This document shows positions 9,151 through 24,968 of a stretch of 64,000 nt of DNA, piece by piece. The stretch covers positions 1 through 64,000 of the forward strand of contig CALGJV010000003.1 of NCBI GenBank assembly GCA_937928595.1. The letters run 5' to 3'. Below the pieces are notes generated by a model. It did not search any database. It was not told where the DNA came from and worked only from the letters and a program-made list of their open reading frames with translations. The first letter of the stretch is position 1. Each line of letters starts with the position of its first letter. This DNA is from an uncultured Phycisphaerae bacterium. Lineage in GTDB: Bacteria > Planctomycetota > Phycisphaerae > UBA1845 > Fen-1342. The translations under genes were made by a program, and so were the position numbers.

Positions 9151-9152
9151 CG

Positions 9153-9194
9153 GGGCCCGGCGGCACTTCCGTGCCTCGCCGGGCCCATTTTTTT
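9153..9194 (+). terminator. Intrinsic transcription terminator
   Basis: A perfect 10-bp GC stem (GGGCCCGGCG at 9153-9162 pairing with 9177-9186) encloses a 14-nt loop. It is followed by A and seven T residues. It ends transcription coming from the surface-protein remnant and isolates the signalling operon that begins at 9481. Confidence 0.85.
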
Positions 9195-9480
9195 CGGCGG
9201 AGTCTGCCGGTCAAACGCCAGAGTGCAAGCGGTTCGCGGCTCCGGCCGGCCGGGCGCTTCGTCCGAAGCGGGTCGCCGCGGCCTCGCGGTGCGGCGTCCC
9301 GGGCGACTCCCGTTTCCGGCAAAGCGGCAGGCCGCTGCGCGCGACGCCGATAATACGCTCCGTGTGACGGCCGGGCGCGCGGCCGGTCGCGGCGGGCCCG
9401 AAACCCTTCTTCAAGTCCGCGGAACCCGTCACCGATGCGCCCCGTGGAGAACTCCGTCCCTGCGGGAGTGCGGTCGTACC

Positions 9481-11013
9481 ATGTCCGCGCAAGAGACGCC
9501 GTCATCGCCGCGCCCGGCCACCGGGCCGCTGCAACGCCTGTGGTCCGGCGCGCTGCCCGAGGTGCTGAGCGCGGGCTGCCTCGCCGTGCTGCTCGCCGCG
9601 GTCGGCGCGCTGTACCTGCTCACGGATGTTGCGTGGGAGGCCGCCGCCCCGGGGCGGGGCCTGCCGGACGCTCTGCGGTGGCGCTGGGGACTCGTGACGG
9701 TCGGGGCCGTGCTCGTGATCGCCTTCCTGTACCGGCGGCTGCGCCGGCAAGCCCGACCGCTGGCCGCCGTGCAGCGGAACCTCGAGCAACTCGCCGCGGG
9801 AGTCGAACGGGACCTCGCGACGCTCGCGCTGAGCGATGCCTTGGGACAGGTGGCCCAGGGGTGGAACCGGCTGATCGGTCAACTGGGCGAGGCGCAGCGG
9901 CAGTTGCGGACGCTGTCGGCCGGGCCGACACCCGAGAACGTGCTCGCGCGGTTCGAAAGCGCCGGGTTCCGGCGGGTGCTCGACCGGCTGCCGTTCGGCG
10001 TGTTGTGCGTGGATGCGCGGCACACGCTGCGGTACGTGAACGGCGCCGCGGCGGTCTGGCTGGGGCGTCCGGCGGCCGAACTCGTCGGGCTGCCGGCGGC
10101 GCAGGTGATCGACAACGAGGCCGTCCGGCAGGCGCTGCTGGCGGTGCGGACGCGGGCCAGCAGCCTGAGCGTCGATCACACGCAGCAGGACGGGCAGCAC
10201 GAGACGACGCTGCGGTTCCGGGTGCTGCCGCCGGCGGACGGGGCGCCGGGCGGCGACGTGCTGGTGACCATCGAGGACATCGGCGCGCTGCGTGAGACGG
10301 AGCGGGCCCGGGACCACTTTCTCTACCACGTCACGCACGAGCTGCGGACGCCGCTCACCAACATCGCCGCGTACGCCGAGACGCTCACGAAACCGGAGTT
10401 CGAGGACGAGCAGACCCGCAAGGAGTGCTACAACGTCATCGTCAGCGAGACCCGCCGCCTGTCGCGGCTGGTGGAGGACATCCTCAGCATCTCGCAGCTC
10501 GAGGTGGGCACCGCGCGGCTGAACCCCGGCGAGGTGGACCTCGCCCGGCTCCTGCGGCAGATGGTGCAGGACAACCTTGGCGCCGCCGACGAGAAGCAGA
10601 TCGACCTGACGCTGACGCTGCCGCCGAAGGTGCCGAAGCTCCGCGGCGACAAGCAGAGGCTCTCGGTGCTGGTCAACAACCTGGTCGGCAACGCGCTCAA
10701 GTACACCCCCCGCGGCGGCCAGGTGCAGGTCGTGCTCGACGTGACGGAGCAGGCCGTCCGGATCGTGGTCCGCGACAACGGCATCGGCATCAGCCCGGCC
10801 GACCAGGCCCGCGTGTTCGAGAAGTTCTACCGGGCCACGGACGACGCCGTGCAGAGCGTCACCGGCACCGGGCTGGGCCTGGCCATCGCGCGCGAGGTGG
10901 CCCGGCTGCACGGCGGTGACATCACCCTCACGAGCATACCGCGGCAGGGGTCGACGTTCACCGTGGAGTTGCCGCTCACCACCGGTGAGTCGGCGGAGGT
11001 GGCGCGCCGATGA
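9481..11013 (+). CDS. Membrane sensor histidine kinase with PAS domain
   Basis: This 510-residue sensor has two membrane segments (about residues 27-50 and 69-85) flanking only a short outside loop. A linker or HAMP-like helix, a PAS domain (about 165-270), the dimerisation and phosphoacceptor box with His286 (VTHELRTPLTNI) and the ATPase domain follow. The ATPase domain has the N box (NNLVGNALKY), G1 (DNGIGIS), F (VFEKFYR) and G2 (GTGLGLAI) motifs. All key residues are present. The ATG at 9481 gives the first N-terminal helix. Its stop overlaps the next gene by 4 nt, so it heads a translationally coupled run with the response regulator. The tiny outside loop suggests it senses the membrane or cytoplasmic signals through the PAS domain. 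Confidence 0.92.
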   Translation: MSAQETPSSPRPATGPLQRLWSGALPEVLSAGCLAVLLAAVGALYLLTDVAWEAAAPGRGLPDALRWRWGLVTVGAVLVIAFLYRRLRRQARPLAAVQRNLEQLAAGVERDLATLALSDALGQVAQGWNRLIGQLGEAQRQLRTLSAGPTPENVLARFESAGFRRVLDRLPFGVLCVDARHTLRYVNGAAAVWLGRPAAELVGLPAAQVIDNEAVRQALLAVRTRASSLSVDHTQQDGQHETTLRFRVLPPADGAPGGDVLVTIEDIGALRETERARDHFLYHVTHELRTPLTNIAAYAETLTKPEFEDEQTRKECYNVIVSETRRLSRLVEDILSISQLEVGTARLNPGEVDLARLLRQMVQDNLGAADEKQIDLTLTLPPKVPKLRGDKQRLSVLVNNLVGNALKYTPRGGQVQVVLDVTEQAVRIVVRDNGIGISPADQARVFEKFYRATDDAVQSVTGTGLGLAIAREVARLHGGDITLTSIPRQGSTFTVELPLTTGESAEVARR

Positions 11014-11411
11014 GCCGAATTCTCGTGGCCGAAGACGATCCGCACATCCTGCGGCTCATCAGCCTGTGGCTGACCCGGCAGGGTCACACCGTCGTGGAGG
11101 CCCGCAACGGGATCGCCGCGCGGGAGCTCGCGCAGGCCGAGCCCGTGGACGTGCTGGTGTGCGATGTGAACATGCCCGGGCTGGACGGCCTGTCGCTGAT
11201 CGAGGCCCTGCGGTCGACCGCGCACGTCCGGCGCGGCGTGGTCGTGCTCACCAATCGCTGGGATCACGGCGATCTGCGCGATCGCCTCGCGGCCGAGGGC
11301 ATTCAGGTGCTGCCCAAGCCGTTCAGTCCGACGCGCCTGTCCGAAGTCGTGGCGGCCTTGCTGGCCGCGGTATCGGTCGAACCGGGGGGCCGGGAGCCCG
11401 GGGCAACATGA
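11010..11411 (+). CDS. Single-domain response regulator
   Basis: This 133-residue protein is only a receiver domain. The acidic pair is Asp9/Asp10, the phosphoacceptor is Asp52 (VCDVNMPGLDG), the switch Thr is Thr81 and the conserved Lys is Lys103 (LPKPF). There is no output domain, so it must act by protein contact. It overlaps the kinase gene upstream and the HD-GYP gene downstream, each by 4 nt (ATGA), which makes the kinase its likely phosphodonor and the HD-GYP protein a candidate partner. Confidence 0.92.
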   Translation: MSRILVAEDDPHILRLISLWLTRQGHTVVEARNGIAARELAQAEPVDVLVCDVNMPGLDGLSLIEALRSTAHVRRGVVVLTNRWDHGDLRDRLAAEGIQVLPKPFSPTRLSEVVAALLAAVSVEPGGREPGAT

Positions 11412-12928
11412 GCAGTTCGATTGCCCCTACCAACGGCGGCCGACTCTTCGGCGACCTGCTGCGCGGGCTGTCGGGCCCGTCCGGGCCGGAAAGCCGCTCG
11501 CTCGGCCTGGTCGGACCGGGCGTGCATCCGCCCCAGCCGCCGGAGCACTGCCTGCGGCTGTGCCTGGGCGGCTCGGTCGACGCCATCCCGCGGCGGGGCT
11601 GTGCGCTCCTGGCCGGCGCCGCCCGGGGCGAAATCCCGGCGGATGCCCTGCGCAACGGCCGTTGCCCGGCCGGCTGCGCCGTGGCCGCTCGATCGGTGCG
11701 GGTGAACGGCGAGCCTGCCGTGCTGTTGACGGTCAACGGGGAACTGCCGGGCCCGGCGGTCGCCGGCGCGGACCTGCTGGGGCAACTGGACCGCGCGCAG
11801 GAGCTCGTCCAGCGTGTTGACGAGCTGCTCGCGGAGAACGCCGGCTTCGCGAACGAGGTGCTCCAGAACTACGAGCAACTCAACCTGATCTTCGACCTGA
11901 CGCGCGAAATCGCCCAGATCACGGAATCGCGCGCGATCGAGCGGCTACTGATGCAGCGACTGGCCCGGTTGCTCGTCGGCCACGGCGCCGGGGTGTGCAG
12001 CGCGGAGGGCGAATGGCGGGCGGCGGTGGCCGACGAGTCGGCCGCGGTCGCGCCGGCCGCGCTGGAGGCCATCGTCGCGCAAGTCAAGGCGCAGCGGCAG
12101 GTGCAGGTGGGCACGGCCGGGAACGCGGCCGTGATTGCGGGGCCGCTGGCGCGGCTGGACGGGCGCGTGGACGTGGCGTGCGTGCTGCGGGCGCCGGGCG
12201 CGGCGCCGTTCGGCGCGGGTGACATGCTTTTGCTGGAATCGCTGCTCACCTTCGGCGGGCAGATCCTGAGCAACAACACCCTGCACGAGCGGCTGCGGCA
12301 GATGTCGCTGGAGGTCGTGCGGGCGCTCGTGGCGGCCATCGACAAGAAGGATCACTACACGAGCGGCCATTCCGAACGCGGCGGGTTCCTCACGCGCCTG
12401 ACGGCGCAGGAACTGGGGTGCAGCCCCGCGGAGCAGCAGACCATGGAGTGGGCCGGGCTGCTGCACGACGTGGGCAAGATCGGGGTGCCGGAGGAGATCC
12501 TCTGCAAGCCGGGCAAGCTCACGCCCGAGGAGTTCGAGGTCATCAAGCAGCACCCGCGCATGGGCTACGAGATTCTGCGTCCCATCGCCAGTTTCGAGCT
12601 CGTGCTCGACGGCGTGCTCTACCACCACGAGTACCCGGACGGCACCGGCTACCCGGCAGGACTGCGCGGCGACGCGATCCCGCTGGTGGCCCGGATCATC
12701 CACGTGGTCGACACGTTCGACGCGCTGACCTCGACGCGCTCGTACCGCCAGGCCTACCCGATCGAGCGGGCGCTGGAGGTCATTCGCGCCGAAATGGGTA
12801 CGCGCATCGACCCCGAGGCCGCGGAGGCGTTCTTCCGGGCCTTCGAGCGTTACCGCCGCGAGCAGCCCGAGGACTTCCACGTCCGGTTCGGCGCACTCCG
12901 CGGCGGCACGGTGGAGGCGTCGCCATGA
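11408..12928 (+). CDS. HD-GYP c-di-GMP phosphodiesterase with Cys-rich sensor and GAF regions
   Basis: This 506-residue soluble protein starts with a Cys-rich module (Cys48, 52, 65, 86, 90; CPAGC then VRVNGEPAVLLTVNG), which resembles a PocR-like sensor. A coiled coil (about 120-165), a GAF-like domain (about 165-290) and a complete HD-GYP domain (about 300-485) follow. Catalytic metal ligands are visible: GHSER (His321), HDVGK (His353, Asp354, Lys357), HPRMG (His382), HHEYPDGTGYP (His406, His407 and the GYP) and VVDTFDALTS (Asp435). It should hydrolyse c-di-GMP to pGpG or GMP. It overlaps both neighbours by 4 nt, linking it to the two-component pair upstream and the degenerate GGDEF protein downstream. 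Confidence 0.9.
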   Translation: MSSSIAPTNGGRLFGDLLRGLSGPSGPESRSLGLVGPGVHPPQPPEHCLRLCLGGSVDAIPRRGCALLAGAARGEIPADALRNGRCPAGCAVAARSVRVNGEPAVLLTVNGELPGPAVAGADLLGQLDRAQELVQRVDELLAENAGFANEVLQNYEQLNLIFDLTREIAQITESRAIERLLMQRLARLLVGHGAGVCSAEGEWRAAVADESAAVAPAALEAIVAQVKAQRQVQVGTAGNAAVIAGPLARLDGRVDVACVLRAPGAAPFGAGDMLLLESLLTFGGQILSNNTLHERLRQMSLEVVRALVAAIDKKDHYTSGHSERGGFLTRLTAQELGCSPAEQQTMEWAGLLHDVGKIGVPEEILCKPGKLTPEEFEVIKQHPRMGYEILRPIASFELVLDGVLYHHEYPDGTGYPAGLRGDAIPLVARIIHVVDTFDALTSTRSYRQAYPIERALEVIRAEMGTRIDPEAAEAFFRAFERYRREQPEDFHVRFGALRGGTVEASP

Positions 12929-14211
12929 CGCTTCCGCCGCTGCGAGCTCCGGTGCTGGCGCAGGGGGCGGAACCGTTCGCGGGCGGCGGCCTCGACGCGG
13001 GGCCGACGGTCGGCCGGTTGCTGAGCGAGCTGGCCTGGAATGCCGCGGGCGATGGGCATGTGTGGGCGGTTTTGGCCCTCGCGGCGCTGACCCTGGTCGC
13101 GATGCACTGGGTCGGGCGACGCCGGGCGGCCCCGCCGCTGGCCGCACCGGCCCCGCCGCGCGGCCGGCCGTTGGCGTCGCCGTTGTCGACCCTGCCCGGC
13201 GTCTTCACGCCGGGCCCGGCCGAACGCCTGATCGCTGGCTTCCGGCAGTGGCTGGCTGAGCAGGACGGGAACGCCGATCTGTGGCGGCCGTTCGAACAGT
13301 TCCTGCGCGAGAATCTCAACAATCTGCTGGGTGCGACGCGCATCCGGTGCTTTCACGTGCGGTCGGACGCTGAGACGCTGACGCCGCTCGTGGGCGGCGC
13401 GGAGGCGGGCGGAGTCCCGCCGCCCAGCGCCCGCGCCGGTCTGCTCGGGCACGTCGTGACCTCCGGGCGCCCCTACGCCGTCGGCGACGTGCGGCAGGGG
13501 CCGCTGGTGGCCCAGCTCGCGGCCCAAACGGAGGACCGCTGGGCGTGGGTCTGGCCGGTGTGCTTCAAGGGCCGCACGCAGGGGGTGATCGCGGTGGGGG
13601 AGGGCGCGGGGGTCGGGGCGTTCTCGGCCGCGGCTCAGGAGGCACTGGGGCCGGCGCTCTCGCTCTGCTGGGAGTGTGTCGCGGCGCGCGTCGCGCTGGC
13701 GGAGGCGGGGCGGAAGGACAAAGCCTCCGGGGTCCTGACGCGGGCCGACTTCTTCGATCAGGCCGGCCGGACGATGGCCGAGTCGCGCGCGTTGGGAGAG
13801 CCGCTCGTCGCGGTGGTGCTGGCGCTGGAGGGGCTGCGGCGACTGGACGACTCCGGGCGGTGGCGGGAGCGCGACGAGCTGGTCGAGCGCACGGGCCGGG
13901 CGTTGGTCGAGCGGGTGCGGCGGGACGACGTGGTGGGTCGGTTTGCCGACGATCGCTTCGTCCTGCTGCTCCGGCGGCTGGACAGCGCGCTCGGGCGGCT
14001 GATCGCCGAAAAGCTCGTTCAAGTGATTCAGGGGCTGGCCGACGCGACCGACGGTGTGCATGTCCGGGCGGGGCTGGCGGGCAGCGGCCTGGCGCGGCCG
14101 GAGCTGGACGCGCTGCTGGCGACCGCGTTCGCGGCCGCGGACCGGGCGCGGCAGAGCGGGGTGGCGCTGGCCGGGGACCTGCCGGTGTCGGATCGGGAGG
14201 ACGCGGCGTGA
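12925..14211 (+). CDS. Membrane GAF plus degenerate GGDEF protein (probable c-di-GMP receptor)
   Basis: This 428-residue protein has one membrane helix (about residues 46-63), a GAF domain (about 120-255) and a GGDEF-fold domain (about 265-420). The active-site signature is ADDRF (341-345) instead of GGDEF, and the catalytic acidic residue is Arg, so cyclase activity is not expected. The RxxD inhibitory-site motif is kept exactly five residues upstream (RRDD, 332-335), which suggests it can still bind c-di-GMP. This order of membrane helix, GAF and degenerate GGDEF with an intact I-site resembles the receptor PelD; that comparison is by architecture only. It overlaps both the HD-GYP gene and the STAS gene by 4 nt. 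Confidence 0.82.
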   Translation: MTLPPLRAPVLAQGAEPFAGGGLDAGPTVGRLLSELAWNAAGDGHVWAVLALAALTLVAMHWVGRRRAAPPLAAPAPPRGRPLASPLSTLPGVFTPGPAERLIAGFRQWLAEQDGNADLWRPFEQFLRENLNNLLGATRIRCFHVRSDAETLTPLVGGAEAGGVPPPSARAGLLGHVVTSGRPYAVGDVRQGPLVAQLAAQTEDRWAWVWPVCFKGRTQGVIAVGEGAGVGAFSAAAQEALGPALSLCWECVAARVALAEAGRKDKASGVLTRADFFDQAGRTMAESRALGEPLVAVVLALEGLRRLDDSGRWRERDELVERTGRALVERVRRDDVVGRFADDRFVLLLRRLDSALGRLIAEKLVQVIQGLADATDGVHVRAGLAGSGLARPELDALLATAFAAADRARQSGVALAGDLPVSDREDAA

Positions 14212-14543
14212 AGATTACGACCGAAAGTCACGGCGCCGTGGCGGTGGTGGTGCCGCACGGCCCACTGGTCGGCGAGGAGACGCTGGATCTGAAGCGGGCA
14301 CTGGCGGAGTCGGCAGTGCTGAAGCGGCGAATCGTTGTGGACATGACGGACGTGCCGTACCTCGACAGCCGCGGCATCGAGCTGCTGCTGGAGCAGTGCG
14401 GCGGGCAGGTGCCGGCGCACCAGCGTCCGCGGCTGGCGAGCCTGGCGGAGACGTGCGCCGAGGCGTTGGAGCTGACGGACGTGCTGCCGCGGCTCGAGGT
14501 GTTCGACACGGTGGACAACGCGCTGCGCGGCTTCCAGCACTGA
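14208..14543 (+). CDS. STAS-domain protein (anti-anti-sigma type)
   Basis: This 111-residue protein is a single STAS domain. The loop MTDVPYLDSRGIELLLEQC carries Asp-Ser at the position phosphorylated in SpoIIAA-type antagonists. A GTG start is chosen because it overlaps the upstream stop (GTGA) and removes any gap. No anti-sigma kinase or sigma factor gene is adjacent. In this setting the protein could instead recruit or regulate the secretion ATPase that starts 4 nt downstream. The partner is therefore unknown. Confidence 0.85.
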   Translation: MKITTESHGAVAVVVPHGPLVGEETLDLKRALAESAVLKRRIVVDMTDVPYLDSRGIELLLEQCGGQVPAHQRPRLASLAETCAEALELTDVLPRLEVFDTVDNALRGFQH

Positions 14544-14546
14544 CGG

Positions 14547-16316
14547 ATGCGTGGAGTACGGACGGTGCAACGGCGGAGCAAGCTCGGGCAACTGCTGCTG
14601 GACGAGGGCCTCGTCAGCGAGGCCGACCTGCGGCGCGCGCTGGAGTCGGCGCAGCGGGACAACCGGCGGCTGGGCGAGGAGCTGATCGCGCTGGGTTTGC
14701 TGTCGCCCAAGGCGATGCTCAGCGCGCTGGCGCGGCAACTGGGCGTGAAGGCCTGCCAGCTGCGGCACGGCCTGATCGACCCCGCGGTCGCGCACCTGCT
14801 GGAGCGCGAGGAGGCGGCGCGGCTGAAAGCGCTGCCGATGTTCAAAGTGGGGGACACGCTGACGGTGGCGATGGCCGAGCCGCAGTCGCTGCCGACGATC
14901 GACCGTCTGGCGGCCCTGACCGGCTGCCGCATCAACCCGGTGCTGGCGCTGGAGTCGAACATCGCGGAGTTCCAGGAGAAGTACCTGGGCGACGCGGTGG
15001 ACATCGACTCGTTCCTCGTCAACCTGACCGAGAGCGAGGTGCACGTCGTCGAGCGCGAGACAGTGGACGAGGACGCGCCCCAGGAAATCGGACGGATGGT
15101 CGAGGGCAGCCCGATCATCAACCTCGTCAACCTCGCGATCATGACGGCCGTGCGCGACGGGGCCAGCGACATCCACATCGAGCCCACCAAGCAGGCGACG
15201 CGGATCCGCTACCGCATCGACGGGAACCTGCGCGAGCTCATGTCGGCGCCCCCGGGCCTGCACGCGGCGATCGTGTCGCGCGTCAAGGTCATCGGCAAGA
15301 TGGACATCGCCGAGCGGCGCCTGCCGCAGGAAGGCCGCGTGCACGTCGTGGCGGAGGGCCGCGAGATCGACTTGCGGGTCTCGTCGATGCCGACGCTGCT
15401 GGGCGAGAAGATCGTGCTGCGGATCCTCGACAAGGCCAATCTGAACGTCGCGCTCGAGAAGCTGGGCCTCACGCCCGCGCAGCTCGCGGCCTTCCGACGC
15501 ATCTTCCAGCGCGCGCACGGCATCGCGCTGGTGACCGGGCCGACCGGCAGCGGCAAGACCACGACGCTGTACTCGGTCCTCGACCTGCTGGCGGCGCCGG
15601 AGCGGAACATCGTGACGATCGAGGATCCGGTCGAGTACCAGCTCACCGGCATCAACCAGGTCCAGGTCAGCGACGTGGTGGGGCTCTCGTTCGCGCGGGC
15701 GCTCCGCTCGATCCTGCGGCAGGACCCGGACGTCATCATGGTGGGCGAGATCCGCGACACGGAGACGGCCCGCGTCGCGATCCAGGCGGCCCTCACCGGC
15801 CACCTGGTCCTTTCGACGCTGCATACGAACAACGCCCCGGGCGCGTTCATCCGCCTGGCCGACATGGGCATCGAGCGCTACCTGCTGGCGTCCGCCTGCA
15901 ACGGCGTGATCGCGCAGCGTTTGGCGCGCACGATCTGCCCGTACTGCCGGATTTCGTACTATCCGCCCGCCAGCGCCCTGGCCGACGCGGGCTGGGCGAG
16001 TCAGCCCGAGCGGGTCTTCTACAAGGGCGAGGGCTGCAAGCAGTGCCACGACAGCGGCTACCGCGGGCGCGCCGGCATCTTCGAGGTGCTCGAGGTGACG
16101 GAGGACGTGCGGGCCGCCGTTCAACTGGCCGACAACGAGGATGGAATCAAGGCGGTCGCGCGGCAGCACGGCTGGCGCCCGCTGCGCGAGGAGGGCCTGC
16201 GCCTCGTGGAGGAAGAACGGTCCACGCTCGAGGAAGTCCTGCGCGTGACCCACGCCGAAACCGAAACCCGGATCCGGGCGGAGCAGCCGGCGCTACCGGC
16301 GGCCGCCCTGGTCTAG
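14547..16316 (+). CDS. gspE: Type II secretion/type IV pilus assembly ATPase (GspE/PilB)
   Basis: This 589-residue cytoplasmic hexameric ATPase powers pseudopilus assembly. Residues 12-66 form a MshEN-like region with two repeats (KLGQLLLDEGLVSEADL and RLGEELIALGLLSPKAM), a fold that binds c-di-GMP in some family members. The catalytic part has Walker A (GPTGSGKTTT, 331-340), an Asp box (TIEDPVEYQ), Walker B (DPDVIMVGEIRD), a His box (STLHTNNAPG) and the zinc tetracysteine (CPYC and CKQC). All appear intact. It begins 3 nt after the STAS stop and is followed at 16 nt by gspF, tying the signalling genes to the machine. Confidence 0.95.
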   Translation: MRGVRTVQRRSKLGQLLLDEGLVSEADLRRALESAQRDNRRLGEELIALGLLSPKAMLSALARQLGVKACQLRHGLIDPAVAHLLEREEAARLKALPMFKVGDTLTVAMAEPQSLPTIDRLAALTGCRINPVLALESNIAEFQEKYLGDAVDIDSFLVNLTESEVHVVERETVDEDAPQEIGRMVEGSPIINLVNLAIMTAVRDGASDIHIEPTKQATRIRYRIDGNLRELMSAPPGLHAAIVSRVKVIGKMDIAERRLPQEGRVHVVAEGREIDLRVSSMPTLLGEKIVLRILDKANLNVALEKLGLTPAQLAAFRRIFQRAHGIALVTGPTGSGKTTTLYSVLDLLAAPERNIVTIEDPVEYQLTGINQVQVSDVVGLSFARALRSILRQDPDVIMVGEIRDTETARVAIQAALTGHLVLSTLHTNNAPGAFIRLADMGIERYLLASACNGVIAQRLARTICPYCRISYYPPASALADAGWASQPERVFYKGEGCKQCHDSGYRGRAGIFEVLEVTEDVRAAVQLADNEDGIKAVARQHGWRPLREEGLRLVEEERSTLEEVLRVTHAETETRIRAEQPALPAAALV

Positions 16317-16332: not shown

Positions 16333-17547
16333 ATGCTGTTCACGTACGAGGCCCTGCGGACGGACGGAACGGCCGTCGTCGACCGGCTCGAGGCCGGCGA
16401 CCGGCTGGCCGCGGCCGGTGCGCTGCGCGAGCGCGGGCTGGTCGTGCTGCGGCTCGAAGCGACCACGGAGGATGTGCCCGCGGCCGGCCCGGGCTGGAAC
16501 GTGCTGAGCCGCCGCATCACCCACCGCGACCGCATCCTCTTCACGCGCCAGCTCAAGATGCTGCTGGAGGCCGGAGCGCCGCTGGTGCCGGCGCTCGAAG
16601 CGGCCGAGGAGCAGACCCTCAAGCCGGCCATGCGACAACTGCTGCGGCGGCTGCGCGTCCGGGTCGAGCAGGGTGACAGCCTGGCGCACGCGCTCGAGGA
16701 CGAGGCCGAGTTGTTCGACCCCGTTTTTCGCAGCATGGTGGCGACGGGCGAAGCCACGGCGACACTGCCGCAGGTGTTCGGGCGGTTGGCCGCGCTCGCG
16801 CAGCAGCAGGAGCAGGCCCGCAAGCAGGTGCTCGGGGCGCTGCTGTATCCGGCGATCCTGAGCGTCCTGATGCTCGGCGTCATCGCGGTGCTGCTGCTGT
16901 TCGTTGTGCCGCGATTCCGCACGCTGTTTCTGAGCCTGCGGTCCCCGCTGCCGGTGACCACGGAGCTGCTCTTCGCCGCGTCGGAGTTCGCGACGCGGCA
17001 CGGACTGTGGCTCCTCGGGCTGCTGGCGGCCGTGGTGACCGGCGGCGTGCTGGCGCTGCGGCTGCCGGCGACGCGGGCCTGGCTGGATGACCTCCAGTTG
17101 CGGCTGCCGCTGCTCGGTCCGCTGGTCCGACGCCTGCTGTTCGCCCGCATCCTGCGGGTCTGGGCGGCCATGCTCCGTTCCCACGTGCCCGTGTTGGATG
17201 CGCTCCGGCAATCGCGGGCGGCCGTGCGAAACGCGGCGTGTCTCCAGGCGCTGGCCCAGGTCGAGGAGGCGGTGACCTCCGGCGGCCGCCTGGGGCCGTC
17301 CCTGGCCTCCACGCGGCTGGCCGACGCGGTGATCGTGGCTGCGCTGCGGACCGGCGAGGAAAACGGCCGGCTGGCCGAGGCGACGGAATTCGTGTCGGGC
17401 TGGCTGGACGAGGACAACGCGGCGACGATCCACCAGCTCACGCGGCTGGCGGAGCCCCTGCTGCTGGCCGTGATGGGTGTCGTGGTGGGTTTCGTGGCGA
17501 TGTCGTTGTTCGTGCCGTTGTTCGATCTGGCATCGGCGGCCGGCTAG
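16333..17547 (+). CDS. gspF: Type II secretion/type IV pilus inner-membrane platform protein (GspF/PilC)
   Basis: This 404-residue polytopic protein has the two tandem T2SSF domains of the family (about residues 65-190 and 265-390) and three membrane segments (near 170-195, 220-240 and 375-400). The typical RDRILFTRQLKMLLEAG and FARILRVWAAMLRSHVP segments start the two repeats. It forms the inner-membrane platform turned by the GspE ATPase. An N-terminal 60-residue region precedes the first repeat, as in longer family members. Confidence 0.94.
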   Translation: MLFTYEALRTDGTAVVDRLEAGDRLAAAGALRERGLVVLRLEATTEDVPAAGPGWNVLSRRITHRDRILFTRQLKMLLEAGAPLVPALEAAEEQTLKPAMRQLLRRLRVRVEQGDSLAHALEDEAELFDPVFRSMVATGEATATLPQVFGRLAALAQQQEQARKQVLGALLYPAILSVLMLGVIAVLLLFVVPRFRTLFLSLRSPLPVTTELLFAASEFATRHGLWLLGLLAAVVTGGVLALRLPATRAWLDDLQLRLPLLGPLVRRLLFARILRVWAAMLRSHVPVLDALRQSRAAVRNAACLQALAQVEEAVTSGGRLGPSLASTRLADAVIVAALRTGEENGRLAEATEFVSGWLDEDNAATIHQLTRLAEPLLLAVMGVVVGFVAMSLFVPLFDLASAAG

Positions 17548-17577: not shown

Positions 17578-18678
17578 ATGTGGTGGCGTGACCGACACTC
17601 GGCGATCACGTTCGACGTGGGGGCCGCGGGGCTGCGCGCCGTGCAGTTCCGCCGGCGCGGCGCCCGCACGGAGCTCTGCGACGCGTTCCAGTTCGAGCTG
17701 CCGGCCGGGGGCGGAGCCTCGCCGCCCGACGGCGTGGACCTGGCGACGATCGCGCACGCCGTGGAACAGGGGCACTTCAGCGGCCGTGATGTGGCGCTGG
17801 TTCTCTCGCCGCCGGACGTGCAGTTCGTGCCCGTGCGCGTGCCGCCGCAGGTGCTGGCGCAGCCGCCCGAGCGATTCCAGCAGGCCGTGCAGTTCGAGGT
17901 GTCGCAGGCGGCTCGGCGCGGCAGCGAGGAGATGGAGCTGCGCGCCTGGCCGTTGCCCATGGCCGGGCCCCAACAGCCGAACGTGATCGCCGTCACGCTG
18001 GCGGCCGCGCAGGCCGCTGCGTGGTGCGCCGCGGCGGAGCAGCAGCAGTTGACGCTGAGTCGCATCGACGTGGCGCCTTGTGCGCTGGTCGCGCTGGCCG
18101 CGCGGACGTGGCCGCCGGACGACACCGAGTCCTGGGGGGTGCTGGACCTGGGACGACGACACACGACGCTCACGCTCGTGGTCGGCCGTACACCCGCCTA
18201 CATTCGCACGCTGGGCGTGTGCTCGCACGACTGGACGCAGCGGCTGGCCGCGGCGTTCGAGGTGCCGCTCGACGTGGCCGAGGAACTGAAGCGACGCCAC
18301 GGCATCCGGGCCCCCGAGCGGGGCGTGCGGGCCGGCGGCGGCGGAGCGGGCCGGCTCGTGGGCGATGAGCTGGCCGGCGCCTGCGCGAGCGTGTTGCGGG
18401 AGGCACTGCGGGGCCTCTCGGCGGAAGTGGGCCGCTGCTTCGCTTACCTTCAGCAAGCGTTTCCGGAGCACGCCCCGCGGCGGCTCGTGCTGAGCGGCGG
18501 CGGGGCCGGTCTGCCGGGCCTGCCGGAGCTGCTGCAGGGCGAGCTCGAGATTCCCGTCTGTCTGCTGGCGCCGGAGCCGCCCGCGGGCCCCGGGGCGACC
18601 CTCCTCGCGGACCGGCGGATCGGCGTGCGGAACGCCGCGGCCGTGGGGGCGGCGTTGCTCGATCTGGAGGCGGCATGA
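17578..18678 (+). CDS. pilM: PilM-like actin-fold pilus assembly protein
   Basis: This 366-residue cytoplasmic protein has the PilM/FtsA-like actin fold. An N-terminal phosphate-1 motif is visible (ITFDVGAAGLRAVQF, residues 8-22), a second nucleotide motif near residue 185 (WGVLDLGRRHTTLTLV), and an adenosine-type motif near 300 (LVLSGGGAGLPGLPELL). PilM binds the cytoplasmic tail of PilN and links the ATPase to the periplasmic ring. The ATG is 30 nt after gspF, and the stop overlaps pilN by 4 nt. Sequence identity with PilM is visibly low, so the call rests on motifs and gene order. Confidence 0.82.
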   Translation: MWWRDRHSAITFDVGAAGLRAVQFRRRGARTELCDAFQFELPAGGGASPPDGVDLATIAHAVEQGHFSGRDVALVLSPPDVQFVPVRVPPQVLAQPPERFQQAVQFEVSQAARRGSEEMELRAWPLPMAGPQQPNVIAVTLAAAQAAAWCAAAEQQQLTLSRIDVAPCALVALAARTWPPDDTESWGVLDLGRRHTTLTLVVGRTPAYIRTLGVCSHDWTQRLAAAFEVPLDVAEELKRRHGIRAPERGVRAGGGGAGRLVGDELAGACASVLREALRGLSAEVGRCFAYLQQAFPEHAPRRLVLSGGGAGLPGLPELLQGELEIPVCLLAPEPPAGPGATLLADRRIGVRNAAAVGAALLDLEAA

Positions 18679-19292
18679 CCTGCGCGGTGAACCTGGTTCC
18701 GGTCGCCTATCGCCTCAGCCGGGCTCGCGCGCGGCGCCGGCGCGCCTGGACCTTCGTCTGCGCGGCGACGGGCGTGCTCGTGCTGCTCGGTGCCGCGGTA
18801 ACACAGACGGCCCGCACGCTGGTTGTGCAACTGCGCGGGCGTGTGGCCGGGCTCGAGCAGCAACGCCTCGACGTGCAGCGGCAGATCGTCGCGCTCGCTG
18901 CTCAGCGCACCACGCAGTTGGCCGAGCTGGAACGCGTGGCCGCCGCGCGCCGGCCGCAGCCGTGGCCCCGGCGCTTCGTCGCGCTCACCGAGACGCTGCC
19001 GGACGGCGTGTTCCTGACGGAGATCGAGATTCGGCCCGCGGCGGGCGGCGTGCCCACGCCCAACCTCCGCACGGCGGTCCCGCCCGCGACGGACACGGAG
19101 CGTCTCGTGCAGCAGGTCCGCGTGCTCGGGTACGCCCGCGGGCACGACGACCTGCTGCAATTCGTCAACGCGCTGCGCGAGCAGCCGGGTTGGCGGCACG
19201 TGGAGCTGGCCCGGTCTCGCATTGAGCCGTGGCAGGGTGCCGACATCGTGGCGTTTGAGCTGGCCGGTCACGCCGCGGAGGACGAGCCATGA
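18675..19292 (+). CDS. pilN: PilN-like alignment subunit
   Basis: This 205-residue bitopic membrane protein starts with MTCAVNLVPVAYR, the short cytoplasmic tail that in PilN docks into PilM (NLLP-type motif). A basic stretch, one membrane helix (about 30-50), a coiled coil (about 50-85) and a periplasmic ferredoxin-like domain (about 90-200, FLTEIEIRPAAG and so on) follow. It overlaps pilM upstream and pilO downstream by 4 nt each, matching the usual pilM-N-O-P order. Confidence 0.85.
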   Translation: MTCAVNLVPVAYRLSRARARRRRAWTFVCAATGVLVLLGAAVTQTARTLVVQLRGRVAGLEQQRLDVQRQIVALAAQRTTQLAELERVAAARRPQPWPRRFVALTETLPDGVFLTEIEIRPAAGGVPTPNLRTAVPPATDTERLVQQVRVLGYARGHDDLLQFVNALREQPGWRHVELARSRIEPWQGADIVAFELAGHAAEDEP

Positions 19293-19876
19293 TCCTGACC
19301 CGGCGGCCCGTGACGCTGTATGACGTTGACGGCCTGGCCCTGTTGGGGCTGGCCGGCTTGCTCGCCCTGGCGGGCTGGGTGGTCGTCTGGCCGATGCACC
19401 GCTCCTGGAACGAGTATCGAGCGCTGGCGGTGCGACGGGCGGAAGCCGACCGCAACCTTCAGACCGAGCGGCAGTCGCTGGCGGTCTTCACCGAACGGCT
19501 GGCGGAACTGAAGAACTCCGTCAGCGCCGCGGCGGAGGGCGTGCCCGGCACGAGCGAGTTCCCATCGCTGCTGCGGCGTCTGACGACGGCCGCCCAGGCC
19601 GCAGCTCTGACCGTCCAGACCATGACGCCGGCGCCGCTGGCGTACGCGCGGGACTACGCCCTCGCGGACGTGCGGATCGAGGGGCGCGGGCGCGGGCTGG
19701 ACTGTCTCCGATTCCTGGAACGCCTGACCCGGGACAACCCCTACCAGTCGCTGCGCGAGTGCCGGTTGACGCGGCCCGCGACGGCCCCGGACGCCGAGTG
19801 TCACTTCGCGTGGACGCTGCGGTTCTACCTGCTGCCGGAGACGCCCGTCGCGGCGGGTGGGGGAGGGCGACCCTGA
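19289..19876 (+). CDS. pilO: PilO-like alignment subunit
   Basis: This 195-residue bitopic protein has one membrane helix (about 15-36), a coiled coil (about 40-75) and a periplasmic domain. Features such as SEFPSLLRRLTTAAQAAAL and the strand pattern at 100-180 fit the PilO/GspM fold. It should pair with PilN in the periplasmic ring. Its stop overlaps the next start by one base (TGATG). Confidence 0.82.
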   Translation: MILTRRPVTLYDVDGLALLGLAGLLALAGWVVVWPMHRSWNEYRALAVRRAEADRNLQTERQSLAVFTERLAELKNSVSAAAEGVPGTSEFPSLLRRLTTAAQAAALTVQTMTPAPLAYARDYALADVRIEGRGRGLDCLRFLERLTRDNPYQSLRECRLTRPATAPDAECHFAWTLRFYLLPETPVAAGGGGRP

Positions 19877-20547: not shown

Positions 20548-20593
20548 CCGCGCAGAACCCTGTGGGGATGTCGAACGTGCAGGAGTATCCGCG

Positions 20594-21097
20594 ATGAAGC
20601 GGCGTAACAACCGGGTTGCGTTCTCGCTCGTTGAGCTCGTGGTCGTCATCGTGATCATCGGGATTCTCGCGGCCATCGCGATCCCGCGGTTGAGTCGCGG
20701 ATCGACCGGCGCGAGCCAGGCGGCCTTGAGCGCCAACCTCGCGACGATCCGGAATGCGATCAATCTGTACGCGACGGAGCACAATGGGGCGTTCCCGGGA
20801 CCGGATGAAGCCGGGTTCGTGAACAAGCTGACCAAGTACACGGACCTCAGCGGCACCGTCTCGGCGACGAAGACGGCGACGGCCAAGTACGGTCCGTACC
20901 TGCAGGCCATCCCGCCGTGCCCGGTGGGCGAGAACGCTGGCAAGACGACCGCGAACAAAATCCTGATTTCGTCCACGAGCCCGCCGACCCCGGACCCGAC
21001 CGGGGGCGAGGGTTGGGTGTACAACCCTACGACCGGCGAGTTCCTGGCCAACACGACGCAGACCGACGACAGCGGCAAGGCGTTCAACACGTACTAA
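20594..21097 (+). CDS. gspG: Major pseudopilin (GspG-like)
   Basis: This 167-residue prepilin has a short basic leader (MKRRNNRVA), cleavage before Phe10 and the hydrophobic helix FSLVELVVVIVIIGILAAIA with the conserved Glu at mature position 5. The soluble domain is of GspG size and contains a short loop with Asp/Thr/Gly-rich sequence near the C-terminus. The residue before the cleavage point is Ala rather than the usual Gly. AGGAG lies 9 nt before the ATG. It is the last plus-strand gene before a strong terminator and the likely main subunit of the pseudopilus. Confidence 0.9.
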   Translation: MKRRNNRVAFSLVELVVVIVIIGILAAIAIPRLSRGSTGASQAALSANLATIRNAINLYATEHNGAFPGPDEAGFVNKLTKYTDLSGTVSATKTATAKYGPYLQAIPPCPVGENAGKTTANKILISSTSPPTPDPTGGEGWVYNPTTGEFLANTTQTDDSGKAFNTY

Positions 21098-21255: not shown

Positions 21256-22356
21256 TCAGCCTGGCCGCGCGGCCGCGGCCAGAAGCCGGGCGGCCACGGC
21301 GTTGTCCGGCTCCAGGGCGCGCAGGCGCGCCGTCCAGAAGCGGACTCGCTCGATGTCGCCGGCGCGGTAGGCCAGAGCGGCCGCGAGTTCGGCGGCCGGC
21401 ACGAGCTGCGGCGCCAACGTCGCCGCCCGGGCGGCCACGTCGGCCCCCGCGGCGTAGTCGTGCTGCGCGGCGCGGCAGCGGGCCAGGAGCAGCAGGGCGG
21501 GCACATGCTCGGGGTGGTTCCGCAGAAGAGTCTGCACCTGCAACTGCGCGGCGGCCGTCCGGCCCACGGCCAGGAGGCACTCCGCCAGCGGCACGCGCAG
21601 CGCCTCGACCTCCGGGTTGTCCGCCGCGACGAGGCTCTCGAGCACGGGAATCGCTTCGTCGCAGGCCCCGGCGCGGAACAGCGCGAGGGCCAGCCGCTCG
21701 CGCAAGCCTGCGTCCGCGTCGGACCGCCCGGCGACGCGCCGCCAGGCCGCGGCCGCCGCGGACCAGTCCCCACACTGCTCGTGGCACTCGGCGAGAGCGG
21801 CCTGGAACGCGTTCGTCCAGCCGAGCTCGGACTGGCGTTGAACCAGGAACGCCAAGGCGCCGGTGGCGTCGCCCAGTTGCAGCCGCACCTGGGCTGCCGC
21901 CACGGCGTAGGTCACGTCGTCAGGCCGGGCGGCCGCGGCCTGTTCGAAGGCCGCCAGCGCCTCCTCCCAGCGGGCCTGCTGCTGCCGGGCGATACCGAGC
22001 AGGTAGGCGGCTTCGGGGCGGTCGGCATCGTCCAGCGGCGCACTCTCGAGCAGCGCGGCCGCCTCGGCCGTCCGGTCCCCTGCCAGCAGCAGCCGCGCCT
22101 CGAGCACCGCCAGGTCCCGCCGCTGCGGGTCCAGGCGGCGGGCCTCCGCCAGCTCCGCGGCGGCGGCCTGAACGTGGCCGGCGTTGAGCTGGTCGGCGGC
22201 CAGCTGCGCCTTCACTTGCGCACGAACCGTGTTCCAGCGGGCACCGGCTTCCTGGCGGGCGATGGCCTGCGGAGACCGGCAGCCGGACAGCCACACGACG
22301 GCGAGGACCGCGACGGTGAGACCGCCGTGCTCGGCGCGGATGCGGAGCGACGTCAT
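21256..22356 (-). CDS. TPR-repeat lipoprotein, possible secretin pilotin
   Basis: This 366-residue protein has a lipoprotein signal (hydrophobic stretch ending WLSGC, Cys26) and about nine tetratricopeptide-like helix pairs through the rest of its length. It should be anchored in a membrane and act by protein contact. Its ATG overlaps the secretin stop by 4 nt, so the two are made together. TPR lipoproteins of the PilF/PilW type pilot secretins to the outer membrane, and that role is inferred here from anchoring, repeats and coupling. The family match itself is not specific. Confidence 0.75.
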   Translation of the reverse strand: MTSLRIRAEHGGLTVAVLAVVWLSGCRSPQAIARQEAGARWNTVRAQVKAQLAADQLNAGHVQAAAAELAEARRLDPQRRDLAVLEARLLLAGDRTAEAAALLESAPLDDADRPEAAYLLGIARQQQARWEEALAAFEQAAAARPDDVTYAVAAAQVRLQLGDATGALAFLVQRQSELGWTNAFQAALAECHEQCGDWSAAAAAWRRVAGRSDADAGLRERLALALFRAGACDEAIPVLESLVAADNPEVEALRVPLAECLLAVGRTAAAQLQVQTLLRNHPEHVPALLLLARCRAAQHDYAAGADVAARAATLAPQLVPAAELAAALAYRAGDIERVRFWTARLRALEPDNAVAARLLAAAARPG

Positions 22357-24146
22357 GGAAGCCCTCCGTTCTCAGCCTCCGGGGGCAGACCCTCGTCCGA
22401 CGGGCGGCCGAAGCGCGGCGGCGTGGGGCCCTGCGCCGGCTCGATCAGGTTCCAGATAAACGTGCGCATCCGCGTGCCGTCCTCGTCCCACACGCGTCGC
22501 GCCAGCAGGTCTTCGCGCAGCTTCAAGGCCGGCACGTGGCGCGGTTGGTTGTGCAGCGACATCCGTGCGTTGAGCAGCGCCGCGTCCAGCTTGCCGCGTT
22601 CGAGTTGTTTGAGCGCCTCGCGGTAGTAGGCCTGGGCGAGACGCTCGCGGCCGGTGCCGACCAGTCCGCGCCGGCTGCCGACGCGGATACGCTCCACGTC
22701 GTCGAGGAGCTGGCGGTATTGCTCCTGCTCGGCGGGGGTGTCCCGGATGATATGGACGGTGAGCAGGATGATGACTTCCTCGCGGATGGTCTGGTCGTTC
22801 CGGCTGCCGAAGAGCAATCCGGCGCCGGGAATGTTGCCGAGCACGGGAATCTGGCTGCGGCTGTTGACGGTGCGCTCGCGGAACAGACCGCCGATCAGCA
22901 CGGTGTCGCCGTCGCGCACGAGGATGTCGGCGCGGGCCTCGGTCGTCTCCTCGAACGGCAGGTTGGCCGCGGTGAGGCCGCCGTTGCTGTCCTTGGGATG
23001 CACGCTGAGCCGCACGGTCCCGTCGTCGTTGATGACCGGGCGGAAGCGGATCTGCGTGCCGGTCTCGAGGAAGTCGACGGTCTGGATTGCGGCCGTCTCG
23101 GTCACCGTGGTCGTGAGGTAGCCGTCGCGACGCCCGACGATGACCTCACCCGGCTGCTTGTTGAGCGCGACGATCTTCGGATTGGCGACGACGGTGACGT
23201 CCGTCACGCCCTCGAGCGCTCGCACAAACATCGCGATGTTGTTCGAGATGATGCCGAACGTGAACCCGCCGGGCGCGACGCTCTGGGTGAACTGCTGGTT
23301 CACGTTTATCGTCGTGTCCTCCAGCCGCGCCGGCGGCAACGGCCCCGTCCGCAGGTTCGTGGTGGCGTCGCTGCGGCTGCCGACGTTGCGGAAATCCACC
23401 CCGCTCAGCACCGTGAAGTCGATGCCGAACTGGTTGCTCTCGTTCAGCGTCGCTCGCAGGATCGTCGCCTCGATCAGTACCTGCTGCGGCCGCCGATCCA
23501 GCTCCTCCAGCAGACGCGCGACGGCGTCGAGCTCGGCGGCCGTGGCGGTGACCACGAGGTAGTCGTTGCTGGCCGGTCCGAGTTCGTCCGCCGCGCCCGG
23601 GCCTCCCTTGCCGGCCACGCCGCCGCTCTCGGTGCCGCCCTCGACCACCCGGGCGTTGTTTCCGAGCACGGCGCGCACCGCCGTGGCCGCCTCCTGGGGA
23701 CGGAGGTACCGCAGGTGAAAGACGCGCGTCGCCGGCGGCGGTTGCAGGGTCGCCAGGTCCTCCGGCATGCCGACGAAGATGGTCGCACCGACCCGCAGGA
23801 ACCCGTACTGGTTCGGCGTCAGAATCGCCGCCAGGGCCTGGTCGAGCGTGACGTTGTAGAGGTTGGCGGACACCCGCCCGGTGACCTTGGTGCTGGTAAC
23901 GATGTTCGCCTGGGCCTTGTAGCTCAGCAGTTCGAGCACCGTGGCAATCTCCAGCTCCCGCACATGGAGGTCGAGCAGTCCGCTGTCGCGCAGCTGGACG
24001 GGGTCGCCGTTCGGGCGCAGCACGCCGGCGGCCGACGCGGCCGGGGGCGAGTCCGTCTGCGCGGCGACCGACGACACCAGCAGGACCAGCGCGAGCGCGA
24101 GGCCCTGGCGCCCCGCGCGACGAACCGTCCGAGCTCGCTGAACCAT
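22353..24146 (-). CDS. Outer-membrane secretin (GspD/PilQ family)
   Basis: This 597-residue secretin begins with a signal peptide (about residues 1-29). An STN/N0-like domain (about 50-120) is followed by an N1-type domain (about 125-240, VFHLRYLRPQEAATAVRAVL) and the secretin core (about 250-490). The core includes VTVVANPKIVALNKQPG, the lip-region VLIGGLFRE and the conserved IPVLGNIPGAGLLFGS. After the core comes a C-terminal helical/TPR-like tail (about 515-580), an unusual position where an S-domain or pilotin contact could sit. The ATG at 24146 is preferred over longer upstream possibilities because it gives the signal peptide and has GGGAG upstream. It is divergent from the minor pseudopilin operon. 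Confidence 0.92.
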   Translation of the reverse strand: MVQRARTVRRAGRQGLALALVLLVSSVAAQTDSPPAASAAGVLRPNGDPVQLRDSGLLDLHVRELEIATVLELLSYKAQANIVTSTKVTGRVSANLYNVTLDQALAAILTPNQYGFLRVGATIFVGMPEDLATLQPPPATRVFHLRYLRPQEAATAVRAVLGNNARVVEGGTESGGVAGKGGPGAADELGPASNDYLVVTATAAELDAVARLLEELDRRPQQVLIEATILRATLNESNQFGIDFTVLSGVDFRNVGSRSDATTNLRTGPLPPARLEDTTINVNQQFTQSVAPGGFTFGIISNNIAMFVRALEGVTDVTVVANPKIVALNKQPGEVIVGRRDGYLTTTVTETAAIQTVDFLETGTQIRFRPVINDDGTVRLSVHPKDSNGGLTAANLPFEETTEARADILVRDGDTVLIGGLFRERTVNSRSQIPVLGNIPGAGLLFGSRNDQTIREEVIILLTVHIIRDTPAEQEQYRQLLDDVERIRVGSRRGLVGTGRERLAQAYYREALKQLERGKLDAALLNARMSLHNQPRHVPALKLREDLLARRVWDEDGTRMRTFIWNLIEPAQGPTPPRFGRPSDEGLPPEAENGGLP

Positions 24147-24476
24147 CAACGCACGCTCCCTGGGCTCGCGGTACGCGGGACCGGCTGGCGGCGCCGCCAC
24201 CGCCCGGCCCGCTTCCCGCCACTCCCATCGGCGCGCGGTTATCGGCGGGTTCACCACAGCCCGCGGGCTTGGGCGGCGGCGCCCGCTTGTTACCGGCCCC
24301 CCGGCAACAATTGCCGCTTGGCCGAACCGCCCGGCGGGCCGTGGCGCCGCGGGGTTATCGCGCCGTCGGACGCGGCCGAAGCGGCGGCAAGGCCGGGCCG
24401 ATGACAGACGGGAGCGCGGCGGCGCGTCGCTCGCGGGAGTGGCCGTGTACGGGTCCGCCGCGCACGGAGTGCCGGG
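24147..24476. other. 330-bp divergent intergenic region between secretin and minor pseudopilins
   Basis: It must hold the promoters for both the secretin pair (minus) and the four-gene pseudopilin operon (plus). I see no convincing -35/-10 pair, sigma-54 motif or palindrome. The open frames across it are Arg/Pro-rich and not believable as protein. Confidence 0.4.
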
Positions 24477-24968
24477 ATGCTTTTCCGACCGGGTACGCCC
24501 CCGCATGCCCCCGAACGGTCACGCCGGGCGTTTTCGCTGGTCGAGCTCGTGGTCGTGGTGGCGATTCTTGCCATTCTGGCGAGCGTGGCCGTACCGCGAT
24601 TCGCGAACTCGCTCCTGCGGCGACGCGTGGAGGCCGCGGCCCGCCGCGTCGTGACCGACCTCGAGCTCGTCCGGCGACGCGCGCGGATTAGCAGCACGAC
24701 GCTGGCGATCGAGTTCGAACTCGAGGCCGCCGCGTACCGCGTGGCGGGCCTGACCGACCCGGACCACCCGCAGCAGGATTACCGCGTGTCGCTGGCCGAT
24801 CCGCCGTACGAGGTGGAGCTGCGCCGGATCGACCTCGACGGCGAGGCTACGCTCCAGTTCGACGGCTACGGTCAACCCGATCGCAGCGGCAGCATCGTCG
24901 TCGGGGCCGGTGACTACGAGATCGAAGTGAACGTGGACGCCGACACCGGGGAGGCCCGCATCCCATGA
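24477..24968 (+). CDS. gspH: Minor pseudopilin, GspH/FimT type
   Basis: This 163-residue prepilin has a basic leader of 18 residues, then the cleavage helix FSLVELVVVVAILAILASVA with Glu5, and a beta-rich soluble domain typical of GspH (RRVVTDLELVRRRARISST, then two beta sheets). The residue before the cleavage site is Ala. GGAGTG lies upstream of the ATG. It overlaps the next gene by 4 nt. Confidence 0.87.
   Translation: MLFRPGTPPHAPERSRRAFSLVELVVVVAILAILASVAVPRFANSLLRRRVEAAARRVVTDLELVRRRARISSTTLAIEFELEAAAYRVAGLTDPDHPQQDYRVSLADPPYEVELRRIDLDGEATLQFDGYGQPDRSGSIVVGAGDYEIEVNVDADTGEARIP

Follow-up and report, generated by a model that had tools for sequence, protein, structure and literature searches.

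A conserved degenerate GGDEF protein encoded between an HD-GYP phosphodiesterase and a secretion ATPase in Phycisphaerae: a candidate c-di-GMP receptor

Background

What a GGDEF domain does once its catalytic residues are gone is the question raised by one gene of an uncultured Phycisphaerae bacterium. The gene lies in a stretch of 64,000 nucleotides (positions 1 to 64,000, forward strand, of contig CALGJV010000003.1, assembly GCA_937928595.1), hereafter the window, and encodes a 428-amino-acid protein in which a GAF domain and a degenerate GGDEF domain follow a predicted membrane helix. We refer to it as the pseudo-GGDEF gene. An earlier note, made from the sequence of this DNA, had likened the protein to PelD, a receptor of cyclic di-guanosine monophosphate (c-di-GMP).

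Here we describe the family to which this protein belongs, which is real, well conserved, mechanistically suggestive and built from known parts. As a rule the degenerate active site goes together in this family with a kept I-site sequence and, in most loci, with genes for an HD-GYP phosphodiesterase, a STAS protein and a secretion ATPase.

Results

Loss of the catalytic site

Judged by alignment, the catalytic residues of the GGDEF domain have generally been lost across the family. In a search of 101 related genomes made to sample the family, 99 contained matches, which were in many cases ordinary GGDEF proteins; 69 regions were fetched around the better matches, and the gene was identified in each. 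Once the truncated L048 and L106 had been dropped (L numbers denote loci, G numbers genomes and f numbers families), the window and 67 loci made up an alignment of 68 rows, on which the counts for this protein are based and which takes in three paralogue rows (L099, L100 and L104). No GG[DE]EF motif occurs in any of the 68 rows. The window reads ADDRF, and the Arg that the earlier note had placed at the position of the catalytic acid, the fourth of the motif, recurs in 62 rows. The metal-site Asp is Ala300 in the window and Ala, Val, Ser, Gly, Thr or Cys in 61/68 rows. Across the family, the strand aligned to DxDxFKxxND of the solved GGDEF domain 3icl reads mostly AxEGLRxLxDxGxW, with E302 found in 66, R305 in 67, D309 in 67 and W313 in 67 of the 68 rows. 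Positional equivalence to a solved GGDEF domain comes from the alignment to 3icl, and the residue roles and numbering are those of PleD.

Both marks of an active diguanylate cyclase, the GG[DE]EF motif and the metal-site Asp, are missing from the window protein. That it could still be an active cyclase, only with an atypical motif, is hardly credible: VCA0965 makes c-di-GMP with the motif AGDEF (PMC3974145), but the window protein and almost all its relatives have other residues in place of the second Gly, of the catalytic Glu and of the metal-site Asp.

The old active site holds four well-conserved Arg residues, namely R305 (67/68; Lys in the 3icl alignment), R344 (62/68; the catalytic Glu position), R381 (66/68; the Ser of SIGIA) and R409 (65/68; Lys in the 3icl alignment). 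D317 (60/68) stands at what we take, from the role in PleD, to be the Asp that contacts guanine. The site may have been remodelled into a metal-independent pocket, rich in Arg, for sensing a guanine nucleotide, for example guanosine triphosphate (GTP) or guanosine tetra- or pentaphosphate ((p)ppGpp), and PleD structures with (p)ppGpp are among the fold matches listed. These five residues could, however, form internal salt bridges; moreover, the residues that bound the metal have gone, and position 413, presumably the second phosphate-binding basic residue, is variable. Even with the report that the degenerate GGDEF domain of FimX binds GTP (PMC11656802), we regard such a pocket as improbable.

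By profile and by fold the protein nonetheless belongs to the GGDEF family. An AlphaFold2 model built from 21 natural sequences has a mean predicted local distance difference test score (pLDDT) of 84; the GAF and GGDEF parts exceed 90 over most of their length (91.7 for the GAF part modelled alone). The GGDEF part superposes on GcbC with bound c-di-GMP (5euh_A; Z 22.0, 1.9 A over 158 residues) and on PleD (Z 21.5, 2.3 A over 158 residues). Hydropathy finds a single hydrophobic segment ahead of the domains. The proposed succession of membrane helix, GAF and degenerate GGDEF with intact RxxD is thus supported.

Retention of the I-site

The RxxD sequence of the inhibitory site (I-site) is kept in 63 of the 68 rows. 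It reads RRDD in the window, with exactly five residues between it and ADDRF as the earlier note had stated, and on sequence grounds this is the placing expected of an I-site receptor like CdgA. Because GG[DE]EF is found in no row, Arg at the catalytic position in 62/68 and RxxD in 63/68, a dead active site with a kept I-site is the rule of the family. By parsimony the I-site Arg changed 3 times over a total tree length of 43.8 substitutions per site, and among 319 sites D335 ranks 8th slowest, R332 40th slowest and site 363 6th slowest. Site 363, which we take to be the position of the third Arg of PleD by counting from that Arg, is the third ligand position; it falls in the slowest rate class and is Lys in 31 rows (the window among them, Lys363), Gln in 32 and Arg in 2.

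By itself the presence of RxxD is not unusual. It is also found in 41 of 45 ordinary GGDEF proteins of the same genome set, a control that is biased in that its 46 loci were chosen as matches to the pseudo-GGDEF protein or as matches from its own genome; the motif finder needed a near-canonical motif and yielded none for L206, so that 45 were counted. RxxD in the family is thus inherited, and the notable point is that it was kept despite the loss of the catalytic site.

The family is conserved in one order of Phycisphaerae, and the named relatives from a contig search are metagenome-assembled genomes of Phycisphaerae or Planctomycetota. Of 392 genomes searched across the phylum, 22 had a match at E<=1e-20, among them the genome of the window itself; the next-ranking match had 91.7 bits against 395.6. 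No member outside the order was found in this sample, which does not show absence; of nine outside loci (L108-L116), 8 carry a canonical GG[DE]EF and L115 has no motif by the pattern used. Matches from other phyla were weaker (24-32% identity) and were left out, and a scan of viral contigs with the pseudo-GGDEF protein found no relatives. One very divergent member, L225 3463-4840 (G023), has several hydrophobic segments and keeps both RxxD and the Arg at the catalytic position.

A conserved operon with an HD-GYP phosphodiesterase and a secretion ATPase

Four successive 4-base ATGA/GTGA overlaps join the genes for a histidine kinase, a receiver, an HD-GYP protein, the pseudo-GGDEF protein and a STAS protein, and together with the ATPase gene that follows they form, in that order, a translationally coupled operon and one apparent transcription unit. 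Two parts of it went unmentioned in the earlier note. The first is the HD-GYP gene directly upstream of the pseudo-GGDEF gene: its motifs are intact in the window (HDVGK and HHEYPDGTGYP), and the residues GH, HD-GK, HHE and GYP are invariant in 62/62 aligned rows. The second is the MshEN domain of the ATPase, which matches NF053729, a pair of 24-residue motifs separated by 5 residues, at 54.1 bits against a cut-off of 38 and with all 53 positions covered. The motif II Gln of this domain is Arg in 37 of 59 rows.

The same order is found in most relatives. An HD-GYP gene lies upstream of the pseudo-GGDEF gene in 60 of the 63 loci where this is visible (58 were called by script, and L074 and L092 were added on inspection), a STAS gene lies downstream in 62/65 loci, and an ATPase gene in 58/61. 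Relatives vary in whether they have the pseudo-GGDEF, HD-GYP, STAS and ATPase genes, which makes the pseudo-GGDEF gene an accessory part; HD-GYP is its most constant companion. In one f2 genome (G038) the set is reduced to the kinase, receiver, STAS and ATPase genes, and in the f2 loci L101, L103 and L227 the HD-GYP gene is missing from the operon.

Relation to PelD

The comparison with PelD drawn in the earlier note stands in part. PelD is a c-di-GMP receptor with an inactive GGDEF domain and an RxxD (PMC2170427, PMC7112168), and the membrane anchor, the GAF domain and the degenerate GGDEF domain with RxxD do have their counterparts here. The more specific marks of PelD do not. It has four membrane helices (PMC2170427), compared with the single hydrophobic segment of the window protein (0-3 segments in relatives, by a simple hydropathy count over the 110 residues before the domain). 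The third I-site Arg that is essential in PelD (R402 in P. aeruginosa) is replaced by Lys363. PelD also has its own Pfam GGDEF model and a pel operon. That model (PelD_GGDEF, PF16963) is not among the matches of the 428-residue protein at E<=0.1, and a search of its own genome with it gave no match but carries no weight, the controls being equally silent. None of the annotated neighbours is a pel gene; they are signalling genes and genes of the type II secretion system (T2SS) or type IV pilus (T4P) kind, with a T2SSE-family ATPase downstream, so that linkage to a secretion ATPase rather than to exopolysaccharide genes holds as the earlier note had described it.

A true PelD homologue that moved into a secretion operon is therefore very improbable. 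The shared domain set speaks for it, and PelD structures are among the fold matches of the GAF part, at E ~1e-3 and template modelling scores (TM-scores) near 0.5; many other GAF domains, including one of an HD-GYP protein, match this part too. Set against this are the lack of a PF16963 match, the single membrane helix, the neighbours and a search of the PDB with the family profile, in which no PelD was among the 50 sequences listed and the GGDEF domain of FimX was among the best matches (E 1.3e-11). PelD was likewise not among the 50 matches listed for the whole model (Foldseek, VIA-align), a result that we do not count against it. We use PelD as an analogy only: the I-site may work in a PelD-like way in a protein that is not PelD.

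Features of the window

The features of the operon and of its surroundings are collected in Table 1. The secretin, the pseudopilins and their neighbours form a nearly complete T2SS/T4P-like set in about 10 kb; a TPR protein and the secretin lie on the minus strand (21256-24506), with pseudopilins on both sides (20567-21097 and 24477-24968). Elsewhere in the same genome there are six other GGDEF proteins, all canonical, together with nine PilZ domains, four secretins and eleven matches to T2SSE-family ATPases. Ahead of the operon, a transposase (DUF772, DDE_Tnp_1; 6313-7680, plus strand) stands just before a cohesin-like fragment (7717-8511), which with an open reading frame containing a HYR domain (8307-9353) is perhaps an interrupted surface protein. 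Three long open reading frames on the plus strand (24965-26041, 40003-41574 and 42369-44117) have no Pfam match at the thresholds used.

Table 1. Coordinates of the pseudo-GGDEF gene, its domains and motifs, and the genes around it
Feature	Position	Strand	Evidence
PAS-HisKA-HATPase histidine kinase, operon start, exact start codon uncertain	9223..11013	+	Pfam HATPase_c 112, HisKA 60, PAS_4 34 bits
Stand-alone response regulator receiver	11010..11411	+	Pfam Response_reg 77.9 bits
HD-GYP c-di-GMP phosphodiesterase, 506 aa	11408..12928	+	Pfam HD_5 133.7 bits; catalytic motifs intact
Pseudo-GGDEF gene	12925..14211	+	intact open reading frame, ATG start, 428 aa; membrane-anchored GAF and pseudo-GGDEF
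Predicted membrane helix, residues 45-67	13057..13125	+	hydropathy; AlphaFold2 helix 45-67
GAF domain, residues 140-250	13342..13674	+	Pfam GAF_2 29.4 bits, cut-off 28.6; GAF domains among the fold matches
Degenerate GGDEF domain, residues 265-407	13717..14145	+	Pfam GGDEF PF00990 31.2 bits, cut-off 23.8; fold Z 20-22 to solved GGDEFs
Family signature ALEGLRRLDDSGRW, residues 300-313	13822..13863	+	replaces the DxDxFKxxND metal/substrate strand; alignment to solved GGDEF 3icl
I-site RxxD, RRDD, residues 332-335	13918..13929	+	RxxD in 63/68 aligned rows
Former GGDEF signature, ADDRF, residues 341-345	13945..13959	+	GG[DE]EF in 0/68 rows; Arg344 in 62/68
STAS protein, anti-sigma-factor-antagonist-like	14208..14543	+	Pfam STAS 36.5 bits; Ser54 in 64/64 rows
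PilB/GspE-type secretion ATPase, N-terminal MshEN at residues 12-64	14547..16316	+	T2SSE 462.7 bits; NF053729 54.1 bits
GspF/PilC platform protein	16333..17547	+	T2SSF 146.7 bits
PilM-like	17578..18678	+	PilM_2 32.1 bits
PilN-like	18675..19292	+	PilN 26.2 bits
PilO-like	19289..19876	+	PilO 25.0 bits
GspG-like pseudopilin	20567..21097	+	typeII_sec_gspG 42.5 bits, below its cut-off; N_methyl motif
Secretin	22353..24506	-	Pfam Secretin 117.7 bits

Discussion

The reading that we favour, and to which we give about an even chance, is that of a pseudo-diguanylate cyclase turned c-di-GMP receptor or adaptor, similar to FimX and CdgA, that couples the HD-GYP protein to the motor; its binding of c-di-GMP, its partners and the direction of regulation are what we infer. 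A membrane-bound receptor is favoured because CdgA, PelD, FimX and the RpfG complex provide precedents and comparable parts are present here in one apparent transcription unit. The position of the gene between HD-GYP and motor suggests that the protein probably helps to signal the level of c-di-GMP to the motor. In such a scheme the histidine kinase and receiver would control how active the HD-GYP phosphodiesterase is, and this enzyme would lower local c-di-GMP. The pseudo-GGDEF protein, anchored in the membrane through its helix and adjusted by way of its GAF domain, would bind c-di-GMP at the kept I-site and change its dimer state or its surface, and this state would be passed to the motor through the HD-GYP, STAS or ATPase protein, while the MshEN domain of the motor would read c-di-GMP as well. 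As far as the sequences indicate, the pseudo-GGDEF protein and the ATPase are most likely two c-di-GMP-responsive parts of a local T2SS/T4P-like control unit.

Several observations weigh against this receptor reading. RxxD is an ancestral trait that is common in ordinary GGDEF proteins, and it is a weak predictor of c-di-GMP binding when taken alone: in a V. cholerae screen several GGDEF proteins with RxxD were negative for binding (PMC4624772). The Lys of the window and the Gln of about half the family at the third ligand position are a warning that the I-site may bind with varying affinity or no longer bind. In one row (L061) the metal-site position does hold Asp, the GGDEF motif still being absent. 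In the ATPase, the motif I Gln, kept in 56/59 rows, is Ala in the window alone of the 59, and the change Q32A in MshE lowered binding by 61% (PMC4624772). Gene content varies in both directions: the HD-GYP gene is followed directly by STAS and ATPase genes, with no pseudo-GGDEF gene, in G012 and G079, and the distant paralogous f7 loci L162 and L163 have HD-GYP, STAS and ATPase without it. Conversely, three genomes (G009, G025 and G005) carry a second pair of HD-GYP and pseudo-GGDEF genes (L099, L100 and L104, the first with a histidine kinase upstream as well) without STAS or ATPase, because of which the ATPase may not be the target of the pseudo-GGDEF protein.

These pairs, in which HD-GYP stays the most constant neighbour, lend themselves to a different explanation, namely that the pseudo-GGDEF protein binds no ligand and docks on the HD-GYP protein as a scaffold or modulator of its activity. 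There is a precedent in Xanthomonas, where active GGDEF proteins act with RpfG to control pilus motors in a way that does not depend on their cyclase activity (PMC3749722). Contact in that system involves a DxD motif; the DxD found on the strand of GGDEF domains reads AxE in the window, which may count against this explanation. The loss of HD-GYP and of RxxD was also considered as an argument for it: both f2 loci in which the gene is present without an adjoining HD-GYP gene (L101 and L103) have lost RxxD, so that RxxD is lost in 2/3 loci without HD-GYP and in 3/60 with it (Fisher p 0.015, or 0.005 without the counter-example L048, which has no adjoining HD-GYP gene and keeps RxxD). We dropped the argument because L101 and L103 are related and their co-loss may be one event; it could equally mean a loss of c-di-GMP control. 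On balance we consider a docking role without ligand unlikely.

The receptor reading can also be extended to a dual sensor, which would bind c-di-GMP at its I-site, sense GTP or (p)ppGpp in the former active site with its four Arg (305, 344, 381 and 409) and integrate both for a motor with its own c-di-GMP domain. This extension is suggested by the conserved residues, and we hold it to be quite improbable.

If true, the favoured reading would make this operon a compact linked c-di-GMP circuit in Planctomycetota, consisting of kinase, receiver, phosphodiesterase, receptor, STAS switch and c-di-GMP-binding motor; our searches of the open-access literature, in which one paper mentioning both Phycisphaerae and GGDEF was covered as a listing entry, gave no description of such a circuit. 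The natural gains and losses of each operon part offer a comparison for asking which protein contacts which, a question that also concerns the complexes of FimX, PilB and HD-GYP proteins.

Comparison with known systems

ATPases of the MshE type bind c-di-GMP through a 53-residue domain of two motifs (PMC5013675). The neighbouring ATPase has the same domain, and it differs in the Ala at the motif I Gln of the window.

In Xanthomonas campestris, the HD-GYP protein RpfG forms a complex with GGDEF and PilZ proteins that acts on PilT/PilU and in which cyclase activity is not needed (PMC3749722). HD-GYP and GGDEF proteins thus jointly control a pilus motor in that system too, with two differences: its GGDEF proteins are active cyclases, and it employs a PilZ adaptor where the operon in the window encodes a STAS protein instead.

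CdgA of Bdellovibrio (Bd3125), whose GGDEF domain is inactive and has an RxxD, binds c-di-GMP at about 2 uM (PMC3271064). The window protein shares the inactive GGDEF domain and the RxxD, binding being known for CdgA. The motif of CdgA is GVNEF, and the accessible text of the report mentions no secretion-ATPase operon for it (PMC3271064).

The degenerate GGDEF-EAL protein FimX binds PilB; in X. oryzae FimX is itself bound by a pair made up of the kinase PdeK and the phosphodiesterase response regulator PdeR (PMC5595344, PMC11656802). As in P. aeruginosa and Xanthomonas, a degenerate GGDEF domain is tied to a PilB-family ATPase, here by gene linkage, and the pair of kinase and phosphodiesterase response regulator of X. 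oryzae is comparable to the kinase, receiver and HD-GYP protein of the window. FimX binds c-di-GMP through its EAL domain and carries REC-PAS, whereas the 428-residue protein has no Pfam match to EAL and has a helix and GAF domain in front. Unlike FimX, it keeps the RxxD of the I-site and is encoded beside the HD-GYP, STAS and ATPase proteins.

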